Source: Maribacter sp. 1_MG-2023
Lineage (GTDB): Bacteria; Bacteroidota; Bacteroidia; Flavobacteriales; Flavobacteriaceae
DNA: 64,000 bases
Direction of reading: 5' to 3'
Assembly: GCF_030547005.1 (NCBI RefSeq)
Contig: NZ_JAUOPN010000019.1
Span: forward strand, 1-64,000
Shown in pieces: positions 6,608 to 52,925 of the stretch. The position numbers were made by a program, and so were the translations under genes. Position 1 is the stretch's first letter, and each line of letters begins with the position of its first letter. A model generated the notes under the pieces. The model had not been told where the DNA came from, made no database searches, and worked only from the letters and a program-made list of their open reading frames with translations.

Positions 6608-6673
6608 TTTTAACAAGAACTTTTCTTAATTCTAAAACATCAATTTGAGTGCAGTCTAAATACTCGAATCAAT

Positions 6674-6704
6674 AAAAAAGCACTTCTTAGAGAAGTGCTT
6701 TTTT
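6674..6704. terminator. Bidirectional terminator between convergent genes
   Basis: A perfect 14-bp stem (6674-6687 with 6691-6704), loop TAG, core GCACTTCT, with six A before and six T after. It serves both the isomerase gene (plus) and the zincin gene at 6726 (minus). Confidence 0.92.
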
Positions 6705-6725
6705 ATTACCGAAAAATTTTAAGTC

Positions 6726-7259
6726 TTATTGTTTTAAAACATGTTCAATTTCTTTAACCCATCTTTCTTGAACGGGCAAATTTCTTGAGTAATTGGTTTC
6801 TGAATCGTACTTATTTTGAAAATCGTTCAGTTGGCGAATGGTAGCTTTATAGATATTACGAATCTCTTCTTTTACATTCTTAGTAAATTTTGTCCCTGCC
6901 AATTGCTTTCGCAATTTTCGTGCATAGAGCTCGGTAATATCAAAATGTAATTGCTCATGTAACAAGGTATCATCATTACATAGCTTAGGTTTGTACCACG
7001 ACTTCGTCGGATAGAAATAGGCGAATACCTTATAATCTACCTGTAATTCGTTATTCTCGTAAAAAGTGGAAAAGCGATACGTAATACCACTTGCCGTAGT
7101 TGCCGCTGCTCTTGAAGTTATGGGAGCAGCACCTTTAAAATCACTCCAAGTAAATCTAAAATTAGGTTCCCAAGACACTACTTCTTGACTCTGAACATTA
7201 GAAATGGTCAGTAGTGCAAATAGAAATAATATTAAATGTGCCTTTTTTATAAGTCCCAA
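6726..7259 (-). CDS. DUF922-type secreted zincin-like protein
   Basis: 177 residues with a signal peptide (hydrophobic LILFLFALLTIS, likely cut before QEVVSW). The motif HEQLHFDITE at 101-110 fits the zincin HExxH pattern, with Glu110 a possible third ligand. This is the pattern of DUF922 (Zn-dependent protease-like), whose members are largely uncharacterised. The only start that keeps the signal peptide is a TTG at 7259, overlapping the end of the OsmC gene by 13 bases, so translation is probably coupled. It is the last gene of the guaA operon and ends at the shared terminator at 6674. Confidence 0.75.
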   Translation of the reverse strand: MGLIKKAHLILFLFALLTISNVQSQEVVSWEPNFRFTWSDFKGAAPITSRAAATTASGITYRFSTFYENNELQVDYKVFAYFYPTKSWYKPKLCNDDTLLHEQLHFDITELYARKLRKQLAGTKFTKNVKEEIRNIYKATIRQLNDFQNKYDSETNYSRNLPVQERWVKEIEHVLKQ

Positions 7260-11476: not shown

Positions 11477-12202
11477 ATGAAACACGTTAGTGCATTAATT
11501 TTTGGAGCTGCAATTGTTATCGCTGCATATTTTTTAGGCAACGCATATATACAAAGGGCGAACCCGCCACAAATGATATCCGTAACCGGTCTAGGCAATG
11601 AAAATTTCACCTCTGACCTTATTGTTTGGGAAGGTCAATTTTCTACAAACAGTACCGTATTAAAAACAGCTTTTGATCAATTAAACCGCGACAAAGAAGT
11701 TGTTCGCCAATATTTAACCTCAAAAGGTATTGATGCGAACAGTATAATTTTTAATAGTGTACAAACTACCGAAATGCGAGATAACCAATATGAAAATGGA
11801 AATTATGTTGGTAGTATTTTTAGAGGATATCAATTAATTCAAACTCTAAAAATAGAATCTGAAAACGTTGCATTGATAGAAGGTGTATCAAGAGAAATTA
11901 CCGAGTTATTAAATAAAGGAGTACAATTCAACTCATCGCCACCAAGATATTACTACACCAAATTAGCCGACCTTAAAATTGAAATGATTTCGAAAGCTAC
12001 CGAAGATGCTAGAATACGTGCTAAAAAAATAGCTGAAAATGCAGGTAGTAATTTAGGTGATTTGGTTTCTGCCAATATGGGTGTTTTTCAAATTACAGGG
12101 CAAAATTCTGGTGAAGATTATAGCTGGGGCGGTGCGTACAACACCTCATCTAAAAATAAAACAGCATCTATTACCATGCGCCTAGAATACAAGGTGAAGT
12201 AA
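11477..12202 (+). CDS. SIMPL (DUF541) domain protein, membrane anchored
   Basis: 241 residues: one N-terminal membrane segment or uncleaved signal (LIFGAAIVIAAYFLGNAYI, about 7-25), then a SIMPL/DUF541 domain starting at ISVTGLGNENFTSDLIVWEG. The AEDARIRAKKIAENAG-type segment (here ATEDARIRAKKIAENAGSNL) late in the domain is typical. Members are periplasmic or outer-membrane proteins (for example BP26, YggE) with poorly defined roles, sometimes tied to oxidative stress. Single gene, divergent from guaA by 74 bases. Confidence 0.9.
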   Translation: MKHVSALIFGAAIVIAAYFLGNAYIQRANPPQMISVTGLGNENFTSDLIVWEGQFSTNSTVLKTAFDQLNRDKEVVRQYLTSKGIDANSIIFNSVQTTEMRDNQYENGNYVGSIFRGYQLIQTLKIESENVALIEGVSREITELLNKGVQFNSSPPRYYYTKLADLKIEMISKATEDARIRAKKIAENAGSNLGDLVSANMGVFQITGQNSGEDYSWGGAYNTSSKNKTASITMRLEYKVK

Positions 12203-12257
12203 TAGTGTTACTTTGATCAATGTCATTTACTGATCTGGTAAAGAATATATTAAATAT

Positions 12258-12330
12258 AAAAGCCCGGTAATCACCCCGGGCTTTTCAATCAACCAATTAT
12301 CAAATCGAATACTTAAAAAATCTTTTTCAT
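12258..12330 (-). ncRNA. Candidate small RNA / terminator module, copy 2
   Basis: Read on the minus strand: a five-codon frame ATGAAAAAGATTTTTTAA (12330-12313), an A/T-rich stretch, then a 10-bp stem AAAAGCCCGG/CCGGGCTTTT with loop GGTGATTA (12258-12285). On the plus strand the same hairpin is followed by TTTTC and may terminate the SIMPL gene. It shares 21 of 28 hairpin bases with copy 1, with pair-preserving changes. Whether it is transcribed is not known. Confidence 0.4.
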
Positions 12331-12389
12331 AACAATATGTATTCAAACACTAGGTCGTTACTTATCTTTTCACCTTACAATTTTTTTAT

Positions 12390-12489
12390 AAAAAAAAGAA
12401 AGCTCAGGAACCACCCCGAGCTTTCACATAAATCAAAAACCAAATTCAAACCAAAGCTTAAAAATTGAACCTAATCAATTCTTTTTCAC
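12390..12489 (-). ncRNA. Candidate small RNA / terminator module, copy 1
   Basis: Minus strand: GTGAAAAAGAATTGA (a four-codon frame, 12489-12475), about 50 A/T-rich bases, then the stem GAAAGCTCGGG/CCTGAGCTTTC (12398-12425) followed by eight T (12397-12390). That is a strong minus-strand terminator, yet no minus-strand gene lies upstream: the next gene is on the plus strand. A short noncoding transcript is the simplest reading. Confidence 0.45.
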
Positions 12490-12571
12490 AGCTATTACTT
12501 ATATAACAACCAGCTCATCATTTACCCTACTATAAAATTCATTTATTTTTACCTTTAGATAAATTAGCTGT

Positions 12572-13117
12572 ATGATCAATTCATTTTTTAAAGAATTAAG
12601 TACTGAAATACACAACGGAGTAAATGAAAAAGGGCATCCGTTCAGATTCATTACCATGGCAACAGTCGGCAATGAAACTATCGCTCGTTTGCGTACTGTA
12701 GTGTTACGTGAGATTACCGAAGATTTACGCCTAACTATATATACTGATAGCCGCACACAGAAAATAAAACATATAAATGATAATAATCAGGTTAGTTTTT
12801 TATTATATCATCCTGAAAAAATGCTACAGTTAAAAGTTGAAGGTACTGCCCAAATGGTAACGGACACAGAAAGATTAAATACGACTTGGAAAACTATCCA
12901 GCCTAACAGCAGAAAAGACTACATTACCCAAACGACGCCAGGAAGCACTATTAAAAACCCAGATAATGTTGAATATATTGAAGATGAAAACTATTTCAGC
13001 ATCATTGATATTAGACCTAAAAAGATTGAATATTTAAAACTTAAGCGACCTAATCATATTAGAGCCGTTTTTGTAAAAACCAATGATAAATGGAATGGGG
13101 AATTTCTTGTTCCTTAA
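12572..13117 (+). CDS. Pyridoxamine 5'-phosphate oxidase-like flavin protein
   Basis: 181 residues with the split-barrel FMN-binding fold of the PNPOx-like superfamily. Recognisable segments are FRFITMATVGNETIARLRTV (first strands and FMN contacts), IYTDSRTQKIKHI and VSFLLYHPEKMLQLKVEG. It is close to Alr4036-like family members rather than to true PdxH, which has a distinct C-terminal R-x-H motif not seen here. Substrate unknown. It overlaps the convergent glycosyltransferase gene by four bases, both stops sharing TTAA. Confidence 0.85.
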   Translation: MINSFFKELSTEIHNGVNEKGHPFRFITMATVGNETIARLRTVVLREITEDLRLTIYTDSRTQKIKHINDNNQVSFLLYHPEKMLQLKVEGTAQMVTDTERLNTTWKTIQPNSRKDYITQTTPGSTIKNPDNVEYIEDENYFSIIDIRPKKIEYLKLKRPNHIRAVFVKTNDKWNGEFLVP

Positions 13118-31562: not shown

Positions 31563-31573
31563 AAAAATTAAAA

Positions 31574-31597
31574 AGCCCCTTTCGTATGAAAGGGGCT
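31574..31597 (-). terminator. Terminator between DUF4295 and ftsY
   Basis: A perfect 10-bp stem (31574-31583 with 31588-31597), core AGCCCCTTTC, loop of 4, followed on the minus strand by TTTTTAATTTTTT. It should make the three small ribosomal genes more abundant than ftsY mRNA. Confidence 0.88.
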
Positions 31598-31622
31598 CAA
31601 TAACAACTAAAAGTTGTATTTC

Positions 31623-31775
31623 TTATTTCTTGGCAATCCAAGCATCTACCAATTCTGGTGGCATAACTTGTTCTACAAAAACGTAAGCACCTGATTTTGG
31701 TGACTTAACCATTTTTATAGCTTTTGTCAATCTTTTAGAACTTGTCTGTAAACTTGCTACGGTCTTCTTAGCCAT
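31623..31775 (-). CDS. DUF4295 small basic protein, probable ribosome-associated
   Basis: A 50-residue Lys-rich protein, MAKKTVASLQTSSKRLTKAI to VDAWIAKK. DUF4295 is a Bacteroidetes-specific family found, as here, right after rpmG and before ftsY. The basic composition and the ribosomal-protein neighbours suggest ribosome association; this is inference from sequence and context. It is 36 bases downstream of rpmG. Confidence 0.88.
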   Translation of the reverse strand: MAKKTVASLQTSSKRLTKAIKMVKSPKSGAYVFVEQVMPPELVDAWIAKK

Positions 31776-38704: not shown

Positions 38705-40015
38705 CTATTTTACGTAACCAGCTTCAATAACAGTAAGCAACATTGCCAATTTAATAGCTTCTGCACCATTTTCATTAAGCCACCATTCATGAAGTGAATG
38801 TGCACCACCGCCAATACCACCTCTACCAATGGTGATTGCTGGTATACCCATAGAAATAGGAATATTACTATTTGTAGAACCTCTAGTAAGACTTGGTTTA
38901 TATCCAAATAAATTGGTAGCACTAATGGCACGCTGCACTAAAGGAGTGTCTAATGAAAGCTCGCCTGATGGTCTATCACCAATTTTTATAAGCTCTAATG
39001 ATATTTCATCATCAATACCTGTATTATTATATGCCTTTAAAGCAGTTTCCATAGATTCTTTAAAAATAGCTTCTACTTCTTTTAATCGACCACTATCAAC
39101 AGACCTCATATCAACTTCCATCCAAGATTCAAAAGGAATAGAATTAACCGAAGTTCCACCTCCTATTCTACCTATATTAAAACTTGTCTTCGCTCCTTCA
39201 TCAGTAAATGCCTTAGCATTTTCAGTAAACTCTTTTATTGCCAAACCAAGCGCATGATGCGGATTTGCCAATCCGAATGCACCCCATGAATGTCCTCCTT
39301 TTCCTTTAAACAGCGCTTTATACCTTACAGAACCTAACCCTGCATTATTCACTCTACCAACCGTACCGCCATCTATAGATATCCATGAATCAATTTTTTG
39401 AGCTCCTTCTCTGAACAAATGCTTAACTCCACGTAAATCTCCTAATCCTTCTTCACCAACAGAACCAACGAACCAAACATCAGCCTCAGTACTGACATCA
39501 GCTTTCTTCATAGCTTTAAAAATAGCTAGCAACATTACTAAACCTCTTGTATCATCTCCAACGCCAGGTGCAACCAAGGTATCTCCTTTCTTTACTACTT
39601 TTACATCGGTCCCTTCTGGGAATACGGTATCTAAATGAGCATCTAAAACAACTATTTTACCCCCAACCGTTCCTTTTCTTATTGCTACAACATTACCTAC
39701 ATCATCAATTGAAACTTCATCTAAACCTGCTTCCATAAACATTTCCTTAAATGCTTCTGCCCTCTCAGCTTCCATAAAAGGTGGAGCCGGAATTTCTGTT
39801 AACGCAATCAAATCACGTTCTGTTTCATTCTCAATAGCATCTATAATCTCAAAAGCATTTTTTATTTTTTTATCTTTCAAAAGCTTACCGACTGCCTTAT
39901 CAATTTTCTTGTCCGCAACTACACTCTCTTGACCACTTAACACATTACTTAATAGCAAGCCGAAAATCAGTAAACCTAAAAAGATTTTATTTTTCAAAAG
40001 ATGCCCCTTATTCAT
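38705..40015 (-). CDS. M20 family peptidase, exported (peptidase T-like)
   Basis: 436 residues with a signal peptide (FLGLLIFGLLLSNVLSGQ). Dinuclear-zinc M20 motifs: VVLDAHLDTVFPEG, the bridging Asp in GVGDDTRG, GEEGLGDLRG, and a final His in GGAHSLHEWW. A dimerisation domain sits between (GKGGHSWGAFG). It probably cleaves small peptides in the periplasm. Single gene, divergent from the symporter gene by 173 bases. Confidence 0.92.
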   Translation of the reverse strand: MNKGHLLKNKIFLGLLIFGLLLSNVLSGQESVVADKKIDKAVGKLLKDKKIKNAFEIIDAIENETERDLIALTEIPAPPFMEAERAEAFKEMFMEAGLDEVSIDDVGNVVAIRKGTVGGKIVVLDAHLDTVFPEGTDVKVVKKGDTLVAPGVGDDTRGLVMLLAIFKAMKKADVSTEADVWFVGSVGEEGLGDLRGVKHLFREGAQKIDSWISIDGGTVGRVNNAGLGSVRYKALFKGKGGHSWGAFGLANPHHALGLAIKEFTENAKAFTDEGAKTSFNIGRIGGGTSVNSIPFESWMEVDMRSVDSGRLKEVEAIFKESMETALKAYNNTGIDDEISLELIKIGDRPSGELSLDTPLVQRAISATNLFGYKPSLTRGSTNSNIPISMGIPAITIGRGGIGGGAHSLHEWWLNENGAEAIKLAMLLTVIEAGYVK

Positions 40016-40188
40016 AATTATTTTTATTTAGAATTTGATATTCGAAAAGGTATCAAAATTAAATCGGTAATAAAATGTAAACCACCTTTATCAGTTCTTA
40101 ATTAAAGTATTCTCAAATTAAGCTCCAAGATTTTAAGTTATCTCACAAGCTCCTTTAACTTTTTGTAATTTGCCGCAAATTTTACACC

Positions 40189-45602: not shown

Positions 45603-45611
45603 TATTTAGCA

Positions 45612-45641
45612 AAAACGTGCTATTTAAAAATAGCACGTTTT
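45612..45641 (-). terminator. Terminator-like hairpin in a divergent promoter region
   Basis: AAAACGTGCTATTT (45612-45625) is repeated as its reverse complement at 45628-45641. On the minus strand the stem ends in five T. No gene reads into it on either strand, so it could end a short RNA, or be an operator. Confidence 0.5.
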
Positions 45642-45903
45642 CAAAACAACCTAACCAATAAATAATCAACATGTGATTATGCTTAAAATTCTTTCTCATA
45701 GCACTTTTTCATAATCACAATACAAATATACATTATGTTTAACCTTTTTTAATATTTCATAAACAAAAATATATGTTAAACTTTTAAAGGCAGTAAACTG
45801 TCAGTTTGTCACAATAAGCTATTGTGGTATTTTTTTTGACCATTAGCAACGAACAAACATTATTAATAATGGCCGCACTAACTGTGGCATAAAAAATATA
45901 AAA

Positions 45904-52288: not shown

Positions 52289-52296
52289 CAAAAAAA

Positions 52297-52318
52297 AAGG
52301 GGACGCTCCCGTCCCCTT
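52297..52318. terminator. Terminator between DoxX-like gene and convergent secreted-protein gene
   Basis: A 9-bp stem AAGGGGACG/CGTCCCCTT (52297-52305 with 52310-52318), loop of 4, preceded by A-rich and followed by T-containing sequence. Suits both directions. Confidence 0.85.
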
Positions 52319-52340
52319 CTTAAAATCAACTTAAATCAAC

Positions 52341-52925
52341 TTAATTAACAACAAACTCTTCAGTATATGTTTTACCTGCAGACTTCACGGTTACCGTGTA
52401 AGTACCTGGGAAAGCATCTGTGAAATTGAATGCTTTCTCAACAATCATTTCATCTGCTACTTCTTGTGTAAATACTGTTCTACTTTCTGTATCGTAAATC
52501 TTGATAGATAAATCTGCTTTATCTAAGTTCAAATAGTTCATGAAGATCATATTATCAGTCTTTCTAAAGAAAGGCTTGATCTCTTCATCAGATTCTACGA
52601 TTTTCACATTATCGTTATCTAAAACGATTGTATATGAATATGCTGTCATATTATCATCGGCAGATAAGAAGTAAACTCCATCTGTCAAATCTTTAAGGTT
52701 TAATTTCTTGCTAAACTGACCTTCGGTCATTTTTTCTGAATAAATAACATTTAAATCAGAATCCATTAACTTAACCTGTACACCATTAATAGATGCATCC
52801 ATAGTTAAAACCACACTCTTGGCTTTACCCGCAGATAATAGGTTTAATTTTGGCTCTCTTGCCATGCCTGCTACTGTAGCTAACATAAAGGCAACAACTG
52901 TTGTGAATTTTACTAGGTTTTTCAT
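52341..52925 (-). CDS. Small secreted beta-sandwich protein (unassigned)
   Basis: 194 residues with a signal peptide (TTVVAFMLATVAGMA). The mature part looks like two Ig/fibronectin-like repeats of about 75 residues: LMDSDLNVIYSEKMTEGQFS with LTDGVYFLSADDN, and IYDTESRTVFTQEVADEMIV with FPGTYTVTVKSAGK. The second resembles the sorting-domain fold of type IX secretion substrates (YTVTVKSAGKTY), but the usual conserved final motif is not convincing. Function unknown. Single gene with its own candidate promoter. Confidence 0.8.
   Translation of the reverse strand: MKNLVKFTTVVAFMLATVAGMAREPKLNLLSAGKAKSVVLTMDASINGVQVKLMDSDLNVIYSEKMTEGQFSKKLNLKDLTDGVYFLSADDNMTAYSYTIVLDNDNVKIVESDEEIKPFFRKTDNMIFMNYLNLDKADLSIKIYDTESRTVFTQEVADEMIVEKAFNFTDAFPGTYTVTVKSAGKTYTEEFVVN

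Follow-up and report, generated by a model that had tools for sequence, protein, structure and literature searches.

Within the window (the whole 64,000-nt stretch of the Maribacter sp. 1_MG-2023 genome analysed here), positions 12203-12571 of the minus strand carry two probable small RNA (sRNA) genes in tandem, U2 upstream and then U1. Both units show the same anatomy: two promoter-like blocks, a box of the form UUGYUAUGAAAAAG, a U/G-rich linker and an intrinsic terminator. The neighbouring genes and the parts of the two units are as follows.

11477-12202, plus strand: SIMPL (DUF541) gene, convergent neighbour (PF04402)
12572-13117, plus strand: PNPOx-type flavoprotein gene, divergent neighbour of U2-type units (PF12766, 54.1 bits against a cut-off of 26)
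12503-12530, minus strand: promoter-like pair of U2, GTAGGGT (12530-12524) and GTTGTTAT (12510-12503), from identity within Maribacter, the N14 spacing and the ECF/FecR pattern
12481-12493, minus strand: start-codon box of U2, AGCTGTGAAAAAG, from alignments
12475-12489, minus strand: mini-frame of U2, GTG-AAA-AAG-AAT-TGA (start codon mostly kept, peptide not)
12430-12444, minus strand: linker of U2, TTTGGTTTTTGATTT, the likely pairing region (mean identity 0.92)
12398-12425, minus strand: intrinsic terminator hairpin of U2, then eight T (terminator scan)
12351-12379, minus strand: promoter-like pair of U1, TGTAAGG (12379-12373) and CGACCTA (12357-12351), from identity within Maribacter
12307-12344, minus strand: 5' stem-loop of U1, arms GAATACA (12344-12338) and GTATTC (12312-12307) with the box TTGTTATGAAAAAGA (12335-12321) between them (arm-swap test)
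12313-12330, minus strand: mini-frame of U1, ATG-AAA-AAG-ATT-TTT-TAA (length not conserved)
12286-12306, minus strand: linker of U1, GATTTGATAATTGGTTGATTG (mean identity 0.74)
12258-12285, minus strand: intrinsic terminator hairpin of U1 (terminator scan)

The original prediction had placed two tandem units on the minus strand, each with a tiny frame opening with (A/G)TG-AAA-AAG and each with a hairpin. Direct reading of the sequence bears this out: the mini-frames start at 12489 and 12330, 159 bases apart, and read as listed. The two 28-base hairpins (12425-12398 and 12285-12258) are identical at 21 of 28 positions, and the pair changes described for them are real, with 1-28 (G-C/A-T) and 7-22 (T-A/C-G) changing jointly and 9-20 going from G-T to G-C. 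The copy said to end in eight T is the upstream one, U2. It was also correctly noted that no minus-strand gene feeds the units, the flanking ORFs at 11477-12202 and 12572-13117 both lying on the plus strand, and that they lack a downstream gene, none being found on the minus strand beyond either unit. A minus-strand ORF at 12499-12756 (85 aa), nested in the region of the plus-strand gene 12572-13117, was not counted as a gene. The scan for terminator-like sites gave two, each on the minus strand, where shuffled sequence would give 0.1. Fold z-scores are -4.5 and -3.7 on the minus strand and -4.3 and -4.2 on the plus strand; because the plus-strand folds score similarly, folding alone does not decide the strand.

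Named relatives of the SIMPL gene, up to 98% identical to it, place the genome near Maribacter. The 369-nt region is matched at E <= 3.2e-8 in 34 of the 35 other genomes of the genus that were searched, and the remaining genome, G024 (64% complete), gives a match at E 0.93 only. A tally at E <= 1 is meaningless because all 60 searched genomes match the region at that cut-off. Identity to the window was calculated over 25 Maribacter rows, i.e. a 28-genome alignment (L012 and L031, loci without the SIMPL gene, left out) minus L020-L022. For U2 it is 1.00 in GTAGGGT, 0.60 in the spacer, 0.99 in GTTGTTAT, 0.89 in the box, 0.72 in the variable part, and 0.92 in both the linker and the terminator. 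For U1 it is 0.99 in TGTAAGG, 0.46 in the spacer, 0.83 in CGACCTA, 0.97 and 1.00 in the stem arms, 0.94 in the box, 0.74 in the linker and 0.87 in the terminator. Blocks conserved at a fixed spacing, with spacers free to change, resemble promoters. The A/T-rich spacer TTTTTAAG, which had been singled out in both units, does lie 5' of each hairpin in the window; its detail is not kept in the Maribacter alignment, where conservation falls on the promoter blocks, the box, the linker and the terminator. In three Maribacter genomes (L020, L021 and L022) U1 is present and U2 is replaced by unrelated sequence; these genomes are viable without U2.

A covariance model over Flavobacteriaceae had been proposed as a check, and two models, R1 and R2, were built, with which the units are seen to recur across the family. 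R1 was trained on 27 U2-type units only (L024 and L091 were dropped from 29). Although trained without U1 or U3, it recovers both. U1 scores 43.1 bits in the window and turns up again in 18 of the 21 Maribacter-titled loci that were scanned; the locus scan with R1 and R2 covered the window and 76 loci, with L131 and L139, also titled Maribacter, outside it. The third copy, U3, is found by R1 at 45610-45713 (36.6 bits, E 0.0021), in the same window as U1 and U2 and adjoining htpG.

45607-45720, minus strand: U3, consisting of a 5' stem TGTGATTATG/CATAATCACA around the box GTGCTATGAGAAAG, a linker and a terminator (R1, 36.6 bits)
45730-45723, minus strand: promoter of U3, TATATTTG (TAnnTTTG), from the sequence

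Model R2 was trained on 22 U3-type units, the window's U3 among them and U1 and U2 absent, and in the window it detects both of these, U1 at 43.1 bits and U2 at 28.1 bits. In 299 genomes of the family, R1 matches 47 at E < 1e-3 and 82 at E <= 0.1 (about 30 chance matches expected), and R2 matches 137 at E <= 0.01 (about 2 to 3 expected), the E-values of both models being rough and related genomes not being independent. In a class-wide sample of 247 genomes, R2 matches 12, three of them of the same family, with about 2 to 3 expected by chance and a best score of 41.2 bits outside the family. The earlier claim of a duplicated small RNA is therefore upheld by the conserved units, their promoter-like blocks and terminators, and the recovery of U1 by a model trained on U2-type units only. 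The genomic addresses recur as well. A PNPOx-type gene lies beside the U2-type unit in 26 of 28 loci inspected within the family. Beyond Maribacter there is one U2-type unit, oriented divergently to this gene; loci titled Eudoraea, Muriicola and Croceivirga are examples. Likewise, of 30 loci with a U3-type unit, 25 have htpG beside it; these loci include some from the training set of R2. Four other places in the window, 6670-6765, 31566-31653, 39955-40030 and 52290-52399 (minus strand), give weak matches to R1 or R2 (17.6 to 24.1 bits, E 0.026 to 0.63), and these are probably due to chance.

The box contains a start codon in most units. Among 65 distinct U2-type units the codon is ATG in 42, GTG in 13, TTG in 4 and another triplet in 6 (GTA in L060), i.e. 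an NTG start in 59/65; all 22 U3-type units have one (ATG 20, GTG 2), and so do all 26 U1 units (ATG). L018 and L019 were left out of these tables for U1; L160, which lacks the GTAGGGT block, was left out for U2-type units here and in the stop and spacing counts. A stop codon within nine codons of NTG-AAA-AAG occurs in 29 of 30 U2-type representatives, against 18/30 and 16/30 in the other frames (Fisher p 5e-5). No early-stop excess is seen in 34 U3-type units (19, 16 and 15 across frames), where a stop directly after Lys-Lys occurs in 8 units against 1 and 3 in the other frames, mostly in related sequences. Past Lys-Lys, residues and frame lengths vary between members, and 5 of the 22 U3-type frames and several U1 frames have no stop ahead of the terminator and continue through it.

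In U3-type units, the 5' stem is well supported by an arm-swap test: own-arm pairing scores 19.55 against 13.98 for swapped arms, and none of 2000 permutations is as good (22 units). The U3-type terminator covaries, with 47 doubly changed cells against 14.6 in shuffles, scored on a structure derived from the same alignment. For the 5' stem of U1 the evidence is weaker than for U3 (17.92 against 17.03 swapped; 3/2000 permutations as good; L029 and one duplicate left out). A 5' stem was also sought in U2-type RNAs by the arm-swap test and none was found, 928/2000 permutations being as good. The box thus lies in the loop of the 5' stem in U1 and U3, and in U2-type units, which have no such stem, it would sit near a free 5' end, so the presentation of the box would differ between types.

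The promoter-like blocks of U2 point to its possible regulator. The GTAGGGT and TTGTT blocks are separated by N14 in 61 of 64 distinct U2-type units; of the other three, L152 and L164 were measured from a second GTAGGGT. A search of 12 genomes for GTAGGGT-N14-TTGTT gave 63 exact matches, 11 of which are the RNA genes themselves, whereas the reversed pattern gave 13. Ten of these genomes have a pair of matches spaced about 590-740 bases apart and directed outwards, and in all seven of them that were checked the pair accompanies genes for an ECF sigma factor, a FecR-type protein and, divergently, a lipoprotein-like protein. The ECF protein scores 116.8 bits with TIGR02985, below the model's cut-off of 126.4. 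Because its promoter pattern also flanks the ECF sigma/FecR locus, U2 is probably driven by an ECF sigma factor as a member of the ECF/FecR regulon. This sharing, a matter of sequence pattern, is what would be expected of an ECF-dependent sRNA, and it supports ECF control of U2 moderately. Since the promoter is shared with a cell-envelope sigma-factor locus, U2 is likely to be a stress-response regulator. The divergent lipoprotein-like gene of that locus (at least 488 aa) is itself preceded by the U2 promoter (L320 1501-1526, L332 1501-1526, G000:C1), and its product has no Pfam family above cut-off.

The other two units have different promoters. TAnnTTTG is the housekeeping promoter type described for F. 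psychrophilum (PMC9723704), and by its sequence the promoter of U3 is of this type. TGTAAGG-N15-CGAC, the U1 pair, has a single occurrence in the window's genome, and a search for a wider regulon in 10 Maribacter genomes gave 15 matches, 9 of them U1 itself, against 7 for the reversed pattern. Between the U3-type promoter and htpG, upstream of the promoter, an operator-like TGTTTAA...TTAAACA recurs (L202-L219).

The 21-nt complement of the U2-type linker, at <=3 mismatches, occurs at 35 places in 28 genomes; 27 are the RNA genes themselves, leaving 8 against 3 for the reversed control. Three of these 8 (L389, L394 and L396) keep the ATG, which is the start codon of an ORF in all three. L389 lies on an Amidohydro_3 gene in G160, with one mismatch in 21 nt and, over 26 nt, a G-U pair as the sole difference; L394 (a DUF1800 gene in G217) and L396 (a sigma-70-type gene in G293) have three mismatches each. 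These places suggest start-codon pairing by the linker in single genomes. The amidohydrolase gene has relatives in 27 of 29 genomes, and the L389 site is absent from the start regions of all 22 close orthologues examined. The 13-nt core of the linker is not enriched in 8 genomes (93 matches, including 8 at the RNA genes, compared with 87 for the reversed core), and no gene recurred among 22 of the non-self places, which were inspected (the position of L363 being off). The 21-nt complement of the U3-type linker, at 33 places in 22 genomes, is not enriched either (12 non-self against 10 reversed). Taken together, the searches with the U2-type linker, its 13-nt core and the U3-type linker and among the L389 orthologues found no conserved target. 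The L396 gene in G293 is ECF-like, and pairing there might feed back on the proposed ECF control.

No match at gathering score to Rfam 15 was found in the window or in 20 loci with U2-type or U3-type units. The suggested link to the Flavo-1 RNA did not hold: no family reaches its gathering score, and Flavo-1 is absent among the 27 matches listed at E <= 10 for 12150-12600. The best sub-threshold match of U1 is RteR (RF04181), which resembles it in having a 5' hairpin, a short linker with GGUUG and a terminator. RteR was rejected on its scores (U1 30.4 bits, U2 18.1 bits, against a gathering score of 72), and weak RteR matches also occur in 8 of 14 unrelated control genomes. Membership in the other Rfam families was rejected in the same way, nothing tested reaching gathering score.

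In enterobacteria, RybB and MicA are sigma-E-dependent sRNAs, controlled by the envelope-stress ECF sigma factor, and sRNAs of this type pair with mRNAs of outer-membrane proteins. U2 would resemble them in being under such a sigma factor, judged here by promoter pattern. The three start-codon complements seen here lie on Amidohydro_3, DUF1800 and sigma-70-type genes. Closer in lineage are FopS and GibS of Bacteroides, paralogous sRNAs that are described as having a conserved stretch left single-stranded and an intrinsic terminator, and as pairing close to start codons (PMC11697453). Compared by description, the present units would likewise be paralogous sRNAs of Bacteroidota with a conserved single-stranded linker and a terminator. 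However, FopS has 14 copies in B. thetaiotaomicron and canonical promoters, whereas there are three copies here, one ECF-type promoter and a common start-codon box. In Flavobacterium psychrophilum, Rfp11, Rfp13, Rfp15 and Rfp18 are conserved flavobacterial sRNAs and Rfp11 has the ECF-type promoter SM6 (PMC9723704). By description they are like the present units in conservation and, for Rfp11, in the promoter type proposed for U2; Rfp18 differs in being described there as strongly structured. In the open-licence literature we found no report of a family of this kind in Maribacter or its relatives.

The above comparisons show the conservation and paralogy of the units, the constant spacing of the promoter blocks, the 5' stem of the U3 type, the terminators and the promoter that U2 has in common with the ECF locus, and they strongly support the view that the units are sRNA genes, for which we infer transcription from the promoter-like blocks and terminators. 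We consider it reasonably probable that U1, U2 and U3 are paralogous genes of one Flavobacteriaceae family of stress-controlled, trans-acting sRNAs, with two of them in tandem in Maribacter. In such a scheme, sRNAs of roughly 90-130 nt would be transcribed, U2 from an ECF-sigma-type promoter, U1 from a related but different block pair, and U3 from a TAnnTTTG promoter. Each RNA would expose the start-codon box UUGCUAUGAAAAAG, which U2 carries close to its 5' end and U1 and U3 carry in the loop of a hairpin; a single-stranded U/G-rich linker and the terminator would follow. Under envelope or protein stress, the linker would pair in trans with start-codon regions of mRNAs, while the box may be contacted by initiating ribosomes or an RNA-binding protein. 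This mode of action is suggested by the anatomy and by analogy, the linker being taken as the pairing region as in FopS (PMC11697453).

Other explanations were considered. The units could be two ordinary, perhaps bidirectional, terminators (for instance of the SIMPL gene) with A/T-rich flanks that are merely alike. Both hairpins do score as good terminators. A search of the genome for further hairpins with such a loop gave 23 matches at <=2 mismatches, although the reversed pattern also gave 16, and one of the matches, L039, resembles a simple terminator. However, the promoter blocks, box and linker are conserved like the hairpins while the spacers are not, and R1 and R2 detect complete units whose genomic addresses recur throughout the family. 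This explanation was rejected on the terminator scan and the blocked conservation, and we regard it as very improbable. A leader-peptide or small-protein gene, with translation of the tiny frame yielding a peptide that has a function, seems only slightly less improbable. The mostly kept start codon and the early stops of the U2-type frame speak for it, and that much of the original leader-peptide-like reading stands. Because indels shift the frame and several frames pass through the terminator, there is no conserved peptide; the residues and lengths after the start vary, on which ground a conserved leader peptide was rejected, the U3-type units show no early-stop excess, and six U2-type units lack ATG, GTG and TTG. 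Nor do the units resemble a leader-peptide attenuator, having no co-directional gene downstream and no conserved coding of the frame. Translation may plausibly begin at the box, but it is not plausible that the resulting peptide has a function.

The third alternative is that the units are decoy RNAs, in which the box, by mimicking a translation-start region (AUGAAAAAG), would titrate a protein or another RNA, the role of the linker being limited to stability or termination. The box is indeed the element that every type possesses, a loop exposes it in U1 and U3, and the failure to find a conserved mRNA target also speaks for a decoy. Yet the linker is as strongly conserved as the box in U2-type and U3-type units, and its long complements fall on start codons in three genomes, so that we consider a decoy unlikely, though the least so of the three alternatives. 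Returning to the family of trans-acting sRNAs, a further and speculative possibility, to which we give little more weight than to the decoy, is a class of ribosome-handled regulatory RNAs. To our knowledge, the initiating ribosomes of this group do not rely on Shine-Dalgarno sequences. An sRNA set under different sigma factors (ECF for U2, housekeeping for U3), with an exposed translation-start box and a short frame, might let ribosomes dock on the box, thereby guarding or gating the RNA, with the linker left to pair with mRNA start codons.

Few sRNAs of Flavobacteriaceae were found in the literature searched. If the proposed family is real, it would be a family-wide sRNA set absent from Rfam 15, with the models R1 and R2 ready for use. 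It would have fixed genomic addresses, next to the PNPOx-type and htpG genes, and a candidate regulator in the ECF/FecR pair, so that control and targets could be tested jointly. A start-codon box common to sRNAs with different promoters would be unusual.

Several variants were seen among the loci. In the U2-type units L107, L225, L229, L231 and L234, an extra hairpin, ACTTCATCCT...CCCCAA...AGGRTGAAGTTTT, with a conserved loop, lies between the box and the linker. Sub-threshold model matches in three genomes (L209, L215 and L216) have another unit in common, TTTAGTTTTTGGTTAGTTTGGTTTGGTATAACCCC, perhaps a fourth sRNA type without the start-codon box. Finally, L235 and L237 contain the box GCTATGAAAAAGAAA with a TTTAGTTTGGTTGGTTAG-like linker in two units at other genomic addresses.
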